From Sphingomonas sp. AR_OL41 (GTDB lineage: Bacteria; Pseudomonadota; Alphaproteobacteria; Sphingomonadales; Sphingomonadaceae): 64,000 bases of DNA. A program made the position numbers and the translations under genes. Under the pieces are notes generated by a model. That model was not told where the DNA came from. It saw nothing but the letters and a program-made list of their open reading frames with translations, and ran no database searches. Below, piece after piece: positions 30,688 through 35,499 of this stretch; position 1 is the first letter of the stretch, and each line of letters starts with the position of its first letter. The DNA is taken from the NCBI RefSeq assembly GCF_029911635.1, contig NZ_JARYTI010000007.1, positions 62,001 through 126,000 on the forward strand. Direction: 5' to 3'.

Positions 30688-30770
30688 CCGTTCGTGCTGA
30701 GCTTGTCGAAGCACTGTTCTTTCTACCGTTGCAAAGCAGAGCAGCCCTTCGACAAGCTCAGGGCGAACGG
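30688..30770. repeat. 24-bp inverted repeat of the GAGCTTGTCGAAG type
   Basis: CCGTTCGTGCTGAGCTTGTCGAAG at 30688-30711, given here as CCGTTCGTGCTG plus AGCTTGTCGAAG, is the reverse complement of 30747-30770 except at two central bases. The motif CTTCGACAAGCTCAGG is a well-known high-copy intergenic repeat in Sphingomonas and related genera. It lies in the 225 bp between the M13 peptidase and LysR genes and may act as an mRNA end or simply be a REP-like repeat. Confidence 0.85.
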
Positions 30771-32931: not shown

Positions 32932-34529
32932 GCGCGCCGGTCCTCGAAACCCGCCTGTCGTCCGACAGCGAGACCTTCCGCGCCAATGCCGCGCACAATC
33001 GCGCGCTGGCAGAGAAGCTTCGCGCCGATGTCGCGCAGGCCGCGCTGGGCGGCAACGATAAGAGCCGCGAGCGCCACACCAGCCGCGGCAAGCTGCTGCC
33101 GCGCGATCGGGTCGAGCGGCTGCTCGATCCCGGCAGCCCGTTCCTTGAAATCGGCCAGCTCGCCGCCAACGACCTGTATGACGGCGAGGTGCCCGGCGCG
33201 GGGATGATCGCCGGCATCGGTCGCGTCTCGGGGCGGCAATGCATGATCGTGTGCAACGACGCGACGGTGAAGGGCGGCACTTATTATCCGATGACGGTCA
33301 AGAAGCACCTCCGCGCGCAGGAGATCGCCGAGGCCAACCTTCTGCCGTGCATCTATCTGGTCGACTCCGGCGGGGCGAACCTGCCGCACCAGGCCGAGGT
33401 GTTCCCCGACCGCGACCATTTCGGGCGGATCTTCTTCAACCAGGCCAATATGTCGGCCAAGGGCATCCCGCAGATCGCCTGCGTGATGGGCAGCTGCACC
33501 GCGGGCGGCGCCTATGTCCCTGCCATGTCCGACGAGACGATCATCGTGCGCGGCCAGGGCACGATCTTTCTTGCCGGCCCGCCGCTGGTCAAGGCGGCGA
33601 CCGGCGAGGTGATCTCGGCCGAGGAACTGGGCGGCGCCGATACGCATGGCCGCAGGTCGGGCGTGGTCGACCATGTCGCCGAGAATGACGAGCATGCGCT
33701 GACCATCGTGCGCGACATCGTCTCGACGCTCCAGCCGCAGGTCATGGCGGGCGCCAACCTGAAGGAGCCGCGCCCGCCGAAATTCGACACCGAGGAACTG
33801 TACGGCATCGTGCCGCAGGACGTGCGCGCGCCCTACGACGTGCACGAGGTGATCGCGCGGCTGGTCGATGACAGCGAGTTTCACGAGTTCAAGGCGCTCT
33901 ACGGCACAAGCCTGGTGTGCGGTTTTGCGCATATCTGGGGGCTGCCGGTGGCGATCCTCGCCAATAACGGCGTGCTGTTCAGCGAGAGCGCGGTGAAGGG
34001 TGCGCATTTCATCGAGCTCGCCTGCCAGCGGCGTATCCCGTTGCTGTTCCTGCAGAACATTTCGGGCTTCATGGTCGGCGGCCGCTATGAGGCGGAAGGC
34101 ATTGCCAAGCATGGCGCCAAGCTCGTCACCGCCGTCGCCACCGCGACCGTGCCGAAAATCACCGTGCTGATCGGCGGCAGCTTCGGCGCGGGCAATTACG
34201 GCATGTGCGGCCGCGCCTTCGGCCCGCGTTTCCTGTTCAGCTGGCCGAACTCGCGCATCTCGGTGATGGGCGGCGAACAGGCCGCCGCGGTGCTGGCCAC
34301 CGTCCACCGCGACGCCGATGGCTGGAGCGAGGAACAGGCCGAGGCCTTCAAGGCCCCGATCCGCCAGCGCTATGAGGACGAGGGCAATCCGTGGCACGCC
34401 ACCGCGCGGCTGTGGGACGACGGCATCATCGACCCGGCACAGACGCGCGATGTGCTGGGGTTGGCGTTTGCCGCGACGCTCAACGCGCCGATCCCGGAGC
34501 GTCCGGCGTTCGGTGTGTTCCGGATGTGA
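32928..34529 (+). CDS. mccB: methylcrotonyl-CoA carboxylase carboxyltransferase (beta) subunit
   Basis: A 533-residue carboxyltransferase. It has the N-terminal [22 protein letters not shown] motif (in part [14 protein letters not shown]), [19 protein letters not shown], a G-rich [15 protein letters not shown] segment and a closing [14 protein letters not shown]. These assign it to the MCC/geranyl-CoA group. It moves carboxyl from biotin to 3-methylcrotonyl-CoA. The biotin carboxylase partner MccA is encoded 1.5 kb downstream, with three unrelated genes between. The reading frame is intact to its stop, which lies about 20 bp before the first arm of repeat element B. Confidence 0.95.
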
Positions 34530-34550
34530 TGCCGGAAGCGGGACCGAAAA

Positions 34551-35008
34551 TTCCTCCCCGGAACGGGGAGGGGGACCGCGCGAAGCGCGGTGGAGGGGCT
34601 GGTCGGACGCTCACCGGGCCGATGCAGACCGTCACTCGCGCACGCCGCCTGCGCCGGGAAATGACGTTGCCGGAGGTGTTGTTGTGGCAGGCATTGCGCC
34701 AAAGGCCTGCTGGCTTGAAGTTTCGTCCGCAACACCCTGCCGGCCGCTATGTTCTCGATTTTTACTGCGCGAGCGCTCGTCTTGCGATTGAAGTTGACGG
34801 CGAAGCGCATAATCGCGCCGACCAGCCGGCTCGGGATGACGCTCGCGACCGCTGGCTTGCGCGCGAAAACGTCCGCGTCCTGCGTATCCCTGCCGACCTC
34901 ATCCTCAAGGACATGGCCGCCGCGATCGCCTACATCGTGGCACAGGCTCTGCCCGACCAGCCCCTCCACCGGCCTTCGGCCGGTCCCCCTCCCCGTTCCG
35001 GGGAGGAA
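34551..35008. repeat. repeat element B: 56-bp inverted repeats enclosing a DUF559 gene
   Basis: The left arm is 34551-34606 and the right arm 34953-35008. They are reverse complements at 52 of 56 positions. All four differences lie in one internal hairpin and pair with each other: ACCGCGC/GCGCGGT in the left arm becomes ACCGGCC/GGCCGGT in the right. A second hairpin in each arm (CCTCCCC, loop, GGGGAGG) is identical. The arms bracket almost the whole DUF559 gene; the right arm encodes its last residues. The unit has the form of a mobile cassette, but no target-site duplication was established. Confidence 0.85.
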
Positions 35009-35023
35009 CTGAAAGGACAATGA
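34622..35023 (+). CDS. DUF559 endonuclease-like protein inside inverted repeats
   Basis: A 133-residue protein of the DUF559 group, a restriction-endonuclease-like fold related to the Vsr mismatch endonuclease. It shows RRLRREMTLPEVLLWQALR, KFRPQHPAGRYVLDFYC, the acidic catalytic-looking LAIEVDGEAH, and RWLARENVRVLRIPADLIL. The D in VLDFYC and E/D in IEVDGE suit a PD-(D/E)xK-type site. The final 24 or so residues (from ALPDQPLHRPSAG on) are encoded by the right repeat arm. The gene sits between mccB and an NTF2-like gene inside what should be one leucine operon. Function is not established for the family; a role in moving the flanking repeat is my inference. Confidence 0.85.
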   Translation: MQTVTRARRLRREMTLPEVLLWQALRQRPAGLKFRPQHPAGRYVLDFYCASARLAIEVDGEAHNRADQPARDDARDRWLARENVRVLRIPADLILKDMAAAIAYIVAQALPDQPLHRPSAGPPPRSGEELKGQ

Positions 35024-35499
35024 TGATCCTCCCGCTCCTCCTCCTCGCCGCGCAGATCACCCCGGTCCAGCCGATCGTGAAGGGCACCGCTTTGCCCCCG
35101 CCCGGCAGCGAGGAAGCCGGCGTGATGGTGCCGGTCAACGGGCTGCTCGCGGGCATTGCCGCGCGCGATGGCCAGGCGATGGCGAAATATCTGCGCCCCG
35201 ACGGCAACGCCACGGTCGCGACCGAGAAGCCCGACGGCACGCGCACCGTCACGCATATCAGCGCCGCCGACCTCCTCGCCCGCTTCACGCCGGGGCCGGA
35301 AAAATATGACGAGCGCCTGACCGACCCGGCGATCGAGATCAACGGCGACATTGCAATGGTGTGGTCGCCCTACACCTTCGCGATCGACGGCAAGGTGCAT
35401 CATTGCGGCGTCGACCATTTCTCGCTCGTTCGCGAAGCCGGCAGCTGGAAAATCGCCAATCTGAGCTGGTCATCGCGCACCACCGGCTGCGCCGGCTGA
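35020..35499 (+). CDS. NTF2-like (SnoaL/lumazine-binding-like) exported protein
   Basis: A 159-residue protein whose N-terminal MMILPLLLLAAQ is a probable signal peptide. The rest has the cone-shaped NTF2-like pattern: a helix with LAGIAARDGQAMAKYL, then strands ending in IAMVWSPYTFAIDGK, HHCGVDHFSLVREAGSWKIANLSW. GSWKI followed by W is the usual last strand. ATG at 35020 overlaps the DUF559 stop and follows GAAAGGA. Such proteins bind small ligands or act as simple enzymes, but no specific role is evident. It probably joined or was carried by the same transcript as mccB-mccA. Confidence 0.7.
   Translation: MMILPLLLLAAQITPVQPIVKGTALPPPGSEEAGVMVPVNGLLAGIAARDGQAMAKYLRPDGNATVATEKPDGTRTVTHISAADLLARFTPGPEKYDERLTDPAIEINGDIAMVWSPYTFAIDGKVHHCGVDHFSLVREAGSWKIANLSWSSRTTGCAG

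Follow-up and report, generated by a model that had tools for sequence, protein, structure and literature searches.

Here we show that the DUF559 gene and inverted arms found in the stretch of DNA analysed here (64,000 nucleotides; hereafter the window, meaning that whole stretch) can be placed, with a probability of roughly three in four, in a widespread family of mobile elements in which a Vsr-fold DUF559 nuclease is the sole protein, the ends are triplex-forming and non-autonomous derivatives occur, cleavage and movement being the parts of this reading that we infer. The proposed unit consists of one DUF559 gene between two inverted ends, each of which would comprise a pyrimidine-purine hairpin and a purine tag that folds back as the third strand of a triplex, sometimes with a second hairpin between them. 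Enzyme clades would possess their own end types, and scattered gene-less end pairs would be non-autonomous derivatives moved in trans. The nuclease would recognise the folded ends, probably single-stranded at replication forks, and would nick at the folded end, with re-insertion or copying passing through host replication and repair. If true, this would provide a role for DUF559, a family still called 'unknown function', and would mean that the REP-RAYT plan had been invented a second time, independently, with a different enzyme fold.

A sequence-only reading of the window had described 56-nt arms that match at 52 positions, and direct comparison of the two arms (Table 1) returns the same figure (52/56 complementary, 93%, with a separation of 346 nt). 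That reading had also taken the four differences to be two pair swaps within one internal hairpin; sequence and DNA fold agree, the differences being two C-G/G-C swaps in hairpin 2 (ACCGCGCGAAGCGCGGT versus ACCGGCCGAAGGCCGGT), so that its pairing is intact. Both arms fold as DNA into two hairpins each, better than shuffled sequence does (z -3.5 and -2.7), and the inner tag on the gene side, GGAGGGG(C), is an exact mirror of the purine 3' strand of hairpin 1, (C)GGGGAGG. On the two-arm score used below, the window element (locus L004) reaches 92. The right arm is read through by the DUF559 CDS, the stop of which overlaps the start of the next gene. While 34622 was taken as the likely start of the CDS, an alternative in-frame start lies at 34529, from which the left arm would be read through too.

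Table 1. Features of the DUF559 element and of gene-less arm pairs in the window (positions are those of the window).
Feature	Position	Strand	Basis
Left arm: hairpin 1 outermost, then hairpin 2, mirror tag towards the gene	34551..34606	+	Repeat comparison; DNA fold
Left arm hairpin 1, triplex stem CCTCCCCG-GAA-CGGGGAGG	34553..34571	+	DNA fold
Left arm hairpin 2, sequence variable, pairing kept	34575..34591	+	DNA fold; comparison of hairpin 2 versions
GGAGGGG, mirror tag of the left arm; candidate third strand	34592..34598	+	Sequence; family-wide covariation
DUF559 nuclease CDS, 133 aa	34622..35023	+	Pfam, conserved columns, structure model, ORF reading
Right arm, inverted copy	34953..35008	-	Repeat comparison; DNA fold
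Right arm mirror tag	34961..34967	-	Sequence
Right arm hairpin 2, two compensatory swaps versus left	34968..34984	-	Sequence; DNA fold
Right arm hairpin 1	34988..35006	-	DNA fold
Gene-less pair, putative non-autonomous derivative	38418..38522		
Gene-less pair	38912..39021		
Gene-less pair	40740..40849		

Genes for an acyl-CoA dehydrogenase and a carboxyltransferase lie upstream of the element, and genes for a lumazine-binding/NTF2-like protein and a biotin carboxylase lie downstream. These neighbours fit a leucine-type acyl-CoA carboxylase operon, in line with the initial statement that the unit interrupts a leucine operon, the leucine role being putative. A scan of positions 34300-35300 against Rfam gave no match at cut-off, and a named RNA was dropped as an explanation. 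The window's genome contains four DUF559 genes, all of which, by eye, have inverted arms of one plan and differing sequences, although those of the L003 element are reduced to short matching pieces. The right arm of L003 (1865-1959 of that locus) also seems, by eye, to be split by another palindromic insert, as if a repeat had entered a repeat.

In purine-motif triplexes, G is placed on G-C pairs and A or T on A-T pairs, and the tag of the window element, as an exact mirror, follows this rule, which is also the mirror rule of the PIT/TM repeats. Earlier papers on PIT elements are reportedly those of Hoyne and Maher. The intrastrand triplex motif described as PIT/TM (TMECO) in PMC4666352 is, by its sequence, the same unit as the arm (hairpin, short turn and mirror purine tag), and the two share the hairpin and third strand (e.g. 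CCCTCGCCCCTTTGGGGAGAGGGTTAGGGAGAGGGG in E. coli), an arrangement in inverted pairs and an occurrence in many bacteria. For the E. coli motif, Holder et al. 2015 (PMC4666352) obtained a triplex in vitro, and footprinting in cells gave no stable triplex (PMC4666352). The authors of that paper state that mobility functions were never found around E. coli copies of the motif, and neither 'endonuclease' nor 'DUF' occurs in its main text. Whereas PMC4666352 presents these as repeats of no known source, here the repeats are the ends of DUF559 genes. The repeats are already known; a tie to DUF559 was not found in searches of open-licence papers, and may explain the spread of common but orphan triplex repeats.

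Stem and tag were compared in 135 distinct asymmetric-stem units from 68 loci. Given that these units are mutually related, z is not a probability here, but the mirror match between stem and tag was 0.859 versus 0.755 with permuted tags (z 14.7), rising to 0.932 versus 0.804 when T was allowed opposite A (z 18). Reading the tag as a direct copy performed far more poorly (z 2.5 and 4.9), and unit by unit the mirror was better in 87 cases, tied in 44 and worse in 4. Hairpin 2 of the window type was found in 26 distinct versions that retain 90 of 110 inner pairs, the three outer pairs having been fixed by the search pattern. As judged from these alignments, stem and tag covary across the family, and the earlier suggestion of selection on the hairpins is supported family-wide, both by this covariation and by the retained pairing of hairpin 2. 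A stem and a third strand that change together would be evolutionary evidence that the third strand matters in cells.

The window protein matches Pfam DUF559 (PF04480) with 90.5 bits against a curated cut-off of 20.6 (E 7.8e-26), and its second match, to REase_MTES_1575, lies below the cut-off of that family; as these are the only matches of the CDS scanned, no Y1_Tnp, DDE or other known transposase was found in the 458-bp unit. Among 50 DUF559 proteins, seven columns show no variation, and E18, E57 and H63 are conserved in at least 90%; the window protein retains all ten but has P at R36 and N at G83, two nearly invariant positions. Its structure model (pLDDT 86) fits gonococcal NGO0050 (3HRL; Z 15.5), I-Bth0305I (Z 13.5) and Vsr (Z 10.6), with a weak fit to TnsA (Z 6.9). 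The protein first described as endonuclease-like is hence, by modelled fold and by conserved acidic residues that we presume to be catalytic, a Vsr-like PD-(D/E)XK nuclease, of the same family or fold as Vsr, YcjD, VsrA and NGO0050.

In the literature covered here, Vsr and DUF559 proteins are read as repair or restriction-type nucleases and not as parts of repeat elements. In Caulobacter, the DUF559 protein VsrA is reported to be Vsr-like, and a DNA damage response reportedly depends on it in cells that lack a methylase (PMC12907096); 'transpos' is absent from the main text of that paper. It could consequently be argued that DUF559 is a repair or genome-guard nuclease that clears triplex or mismatched structures, the repeats at its own gene being regulatory and having spread by slippage or another enzyme, and the association of triplex repeats with genome instability in E. 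coli (PMC4666352) is in keeping with this. We consider such a housekeeping role improbable as an account of the repeats, for reasons of number, arrangement and specificity given with the respective results below. Legionella has a segment in three copies that carries both a transposase and a DUF559 gene, and these copies are hotspots of mutation and recombination (PMC12308824).

The pairing of DUF559 with hairpins was surveyed at 104 loci, 34 in the genus of the window's genome and 70 drawn phylum-wide from Pseudomonadota, the latter including members of the same genus or family. These included all four loci of the window's genome (L001-L004), the best match per genome (L005-L064) and 40 of 41 further genomes (L065-L104; G288 was left out). 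DUF559 was present in 108 of 299 genomes, 36 of which lie outside the locus set, mostly with weaker matches. A purine-strand hairpin was found within 350 bp of 102 of the 104 genes, and on both sides of 73, an arrangement that speaks against a purely regulatory or housekeeping origin. For comparison, 855 fake genes placed around 40 of the 104 had a hairpin in 37 cases and hairpins on both sides in none, versus 38 and 29, respectively, for the 40 real genes of these control stretches. The two-arm score was at least 38 at 72/104 loci versus 8/2883 control positions, none of which reached 50 (taken from forty stretches, each 11-20 kb long, that surround other DUF559 genes; both control sets were drawn from L065-L104 alone). 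It had been anticipated that DUF559 genes elsewhere would lie within such arms, and 30 of the 34 genus-level genes do so at a score of at least 38. Among arms oriented by their tag (a hairpin alone has no strand sense), the tag points inward at 71 left and 59 right sides and outward at 16 left and 21 right sides.

A second set of 80 loci from 13 named phyla, with phylum names taken from the titles of records that are in many cases metagenome bins, had a hairpin at 78, hairpins on both sides at 61 and arms at 46, while 431 local controls had 35, 1 and 1, arms having been sought within 350 bp in the controls and within 500 bp at the real loci. Hairpins stood beside DUF559 in 12 of the 13 named phyla, the sole Verrucomicrobiota locus of the set having none. 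On plasmids (nine loci, by eye), all 8 loci of Cyanobacteria and Deinococcus had hairpins of this plan and a Thermoactinomyces copy had no such hairpin; the arm score was at least 38 at 4/9. None of 30 Vsr genes had such hairpins (at two of these loci, L247 and L255, the record is cut short and the gene position misplaced), and the arms therefore belong with DUF559 and not with small Vsr-fold genes generally.

Several explanations of the hairpins were rejected on these data. Chance or local G+C composition is contradicted by the control counts for hairpins on both sides (0/855 and 1/431), and a general property of Vsr-fold genes by the 30 Vsr loci, while a plain transcription terminator leaves inverted two-sided arms, mirror tags and enzyme-specific types unexplained. 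A further alternative is that a RAYT or another transposase moves the repeats and that DUF559 genes were captured by them. REP doublets moved by RAYTs are alike in plan (PMC3116915, PMC3733652), but this alternative is very improbable when DUF559 is found beside such hairpins across 12 of 13 named phyla and Vsr genes are not, when ends and enzyme diversify together (see below), and when the sole CDS scanned in the 458-bp unit is DUF559 itself.

In E. coli K-12, RefSeq annotates ycjD as DUF559, and the triplex motif is present between fabI and ycjD. Units flank the K-12 gene on a single side, as is also the case at two loci from a family that is probably enterobacterial. It is important to note that our DUF559 family search gave no match in the E. 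coli control genome, despite the RefSeq annotation. Other E. coli lineages carry an RND efflux operon at the place of ycjD (PMC12817139), and no clean empty ycjD site was seen in three E. coli records, two of which have the efflux operon and one a broken ycjD. If DUF559 is the enzyme of the repeats, their origin, their spread and their link to genome instability become directly testable, E. coli K-12 included. As regards gene order, ycjD sits between fabI and sapF (L137, E. coli K-12; L138 and L139). Two DUF559 genes stand about 4.5 kb apart in opposite orientation in several genomes (L171, L178; places in G282 and G040), and in two such genomes fabI and, on the other side, an aroC-like gene seem to flank one copy (gene names assigned by eye). 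In the Synechocystis sp. B12 plasmid (L352), DUF559 is immediately upstream of a gene annotated as the BREX methyltransferase pglX.

The relationship between ends and enzyme was assessed on a tree of 57 enzymes, for which eight arm classes had been assigned by hand before the tree was built (L003, L029 and L072, with scores below 38, were classed by eye; L019, L033, L094, L171b, L173, L178b and L189 were excluded as having no clear arms). The classes require 10 changes on this tree, compared to a minimum of 7 and a shuffled mean of 39.5, and 0 of 200 shuffles were as low; several arm classes are often found within one genome. Arm similarity and protein similarity are correlated across 54 elements (Mantel r 0.50), and remain so when each host site contributes a single element (r 0.47, 19 sites), with 0 of 2000 permutations as high in either case. 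The 54 genus elements fall into 19 site clusters, 14 of them at one site, and given that so many share host sites, vertical inheritance explains part of the codiversification. Within this sequence comparison, ends and enzyme diversify together. The most heavily occupied host site, a hot spot with its 14 elements (L006, L009, L017, L022, L184 and nine others), holds two arm classes.

A covariance-model search with the arm unit, as had been suggested from the window sequence, found between 0 and at least 115 copies per genome in 61 genomes of the genus. The repeat count rises with the DUF559 count (rho 0.66, a value that ignores kinship, with the highest counts as lower bounds of at least 114 and with genome size correlating weakly with both counts), and four DUF559-free genomes have 0, 4, 5 and 9 repeats. 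Repeats that increase, and do not decrease, with the number of DUF559 genes are contrary to what a nuclease that clears such structures would leave behind.

Repeat class, too, is linked to enzyme clade, which again disfavours a housekeeping role. At least three T6a repeats were found in 16/17 genomes with the T6a enzyme clade versus 7/44 without (p 2e-8), and at least three T4 repeats in 9/13 genomes with the T4 enzyme versus 13/48 without (p 0.009), where repeats were counted with exact patterns for the two classes, the genes' own arms included, enzyme clades were defined by protein searches and clade limits were fixed after the repeat counts had been seen. The T4 limit falls in a clear gap (at least 137 bits, the next at 117; G002, 67% identical over a shorter stretch at 108 bits, was added), while the T6a limit of 96 bits, a manual choice, separates G050 (96.8) from G038 (90.3) with no clear gap. 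In the crossed tests, neither enzyme was associated with the repeats of the other class (p 0.53 and 0.77). Five genomes have at least 10 T6a repeats and no T6a-clade enzyme by this limit (among them G018 with 160 and G058 with 92), and 11 genomes, the window's own included, have at least 10 T4 repeats and no T4 enzyme; loss of the enzyme after spread of the repeats would explain such cases. Judging by these counts, each of the two clades appears to predict its own repeat class and not the other's, with strong exceptions. The three gene-less pairs of the window (Table 1) belong to three different arm classes and lie within 6 kb downstream of the element.

Orthologous sites were compared within the genus. 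The distance between the flanking genes at the window's site is 7-89 bp in 10 and 493-973 bp in 15 of 25 genomes, namely those of the 61 in which both neighbours could be paired by hand on one contig; a wide gap is not always an element, as G006 has a gap of 949 bp and no DUF559 in its genome. A search for close siblings of the window's genome yielded none (71% at best on the neighbouring protein), and the window's junction is consequently not base-exact. At 29 other neighbour loci, a DUF559 motif lies between two hairpins in L108, L122, L125, L126, L127 and L132, in either orientation; two hairpins without a motif match occur in L123, L124 and L130, and a single hairpin in L114 (the motif search missed L124 and L130, in which a DUF559 reading is visible, and L119 is unoriented).

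The joined flanks of nine other elements were also searched in 295 genomes of the genus; by its design, such a query is biased towards empty sites. The L172 site is empty in 20 relatives with flanks 77-85% identical, a net 2-27 bp replacing 442, and in 11 of these 20 whose sites were inspected there is no unit of this kind; two other relatives have 693-818 bp between the flanks, and further ones have about 440 bp, the length that a filled site would give. At one locus, empty sites thereby coincide with the limits of the element, as had been expected, to within 2-27 bp. Target-site duplications were not seen, the divergence of the empty sites leaving the junction unfixed, and the limits are not base-exact. 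For L175, eight relatives with flanks 86-96% identical are occupied, two by the same gene element and six by gene-less pairs of other arm classes, while a ninth (83%) is empty. L180 has its element in one relative, a single gene-less pair in four and two pairs in a row in two. One relative has a lone hairpin at L190, L176 and L179 yielded one filled or partly aligned relative each, and the flank searches for L182, L187 and L188 in the 295 genomes gave nothing usable. In these comparisons, gene and arms are present or absent together as a unit, which is a further point against housekeeping. Both comparisons that put the nuclease-repeat cassette at risk, i.e. arms at other DUF559 genes and empty sites, left the idea standing; self-movement is the part that we infer.

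Replacement of one repeat family by another at a site suggests homing, and gains at empty sites suggest transposition. In the former case, the nuclease would cut existing triplex repeats and host repair would copy the element in, families thus replacing each other at a site. Sister species carry different arm families in each other's place at two sites, 14/54 genus elements share one host site, and the homing endonuclease I-Bth0305I is among the nearest named folds of the window protein. Homing nevertheless seems to us the less likely account of the family, since the 20 empty relatives at one site, 11 of them seen to lack a unit, mean that naive-site gains or clean losses occur, and since gene-less pairs are found at many places without a gene.

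RAYTs are Y1 HUH transposases, and TnsA acts with a DDE transposase and regulators. The I-Bth0305I family shares its Vsr-like catalytic fold with the window protein, and we know of no inverted triplex ends or gene-less derivatives in it. TnsA of Tn7 is a PD-(D/E)XK nuclease that serves transposition (PMC1189080), but its fold likeness to DUF559 is limited to Z 6.9. The likeness to REP/REPIN-RAYT systems that had been drawn at the outset holds for the plan, which includes palindromic repeats, inverted doublets, a dispersed repeat that stands in inverted copies on either side of an enzyme gene, specific pairing of repeat and enzyme and gene-less derivatives; the enzymes differ, a tyrosine transposase in RAYTs and a PD-(D/E)XK nuclease here, in accordance with the Vsr-like nuclease that had been proposed. 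Most REPs have GTAG or CGTC at one end (PMC3733652), whereas the tag of the DUF559 elements is a mirror purine tract. GTAG and CGTC are absent from the window arms on either strand, and among 243 family hairpins GTAG/CTAC was near 26 and CGTC/GACG near 38, as counted without a position test or chance expectation. With no Y1 gene in its 458 bp and no foot tag, the unit is ruled out as a REP/RAYT member, and CGTC REPs are likewise ruled out as a different repeat, the stems of which start with A-T pairs (PMC3733652).

More tentatively, and at slightly less than even odds in our estimation, these elements may form a broad bacterial class in which a lone Vsr-fold nuclease reads the triple helix at the ends, and may be the source of the intrastrand triplex repeats of bacteria. 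If so, there would be a class of transposition or copying in which a PD-(D/E)XK nuclease acts alone and a folded triplex is the site that it recognises. On Deinococcus plasmids of three species (L356-L358), DUF559 lies between three different pairs of neighbours within the same hpa operon. In the window itself, an inverted repeat of another kind (GTGCTGAGCTTGTCGAAGCAC ... CCTTCGACAAGCTCAGG) at positions 30692-30765 resembles a further dispersed repeat of the same group.
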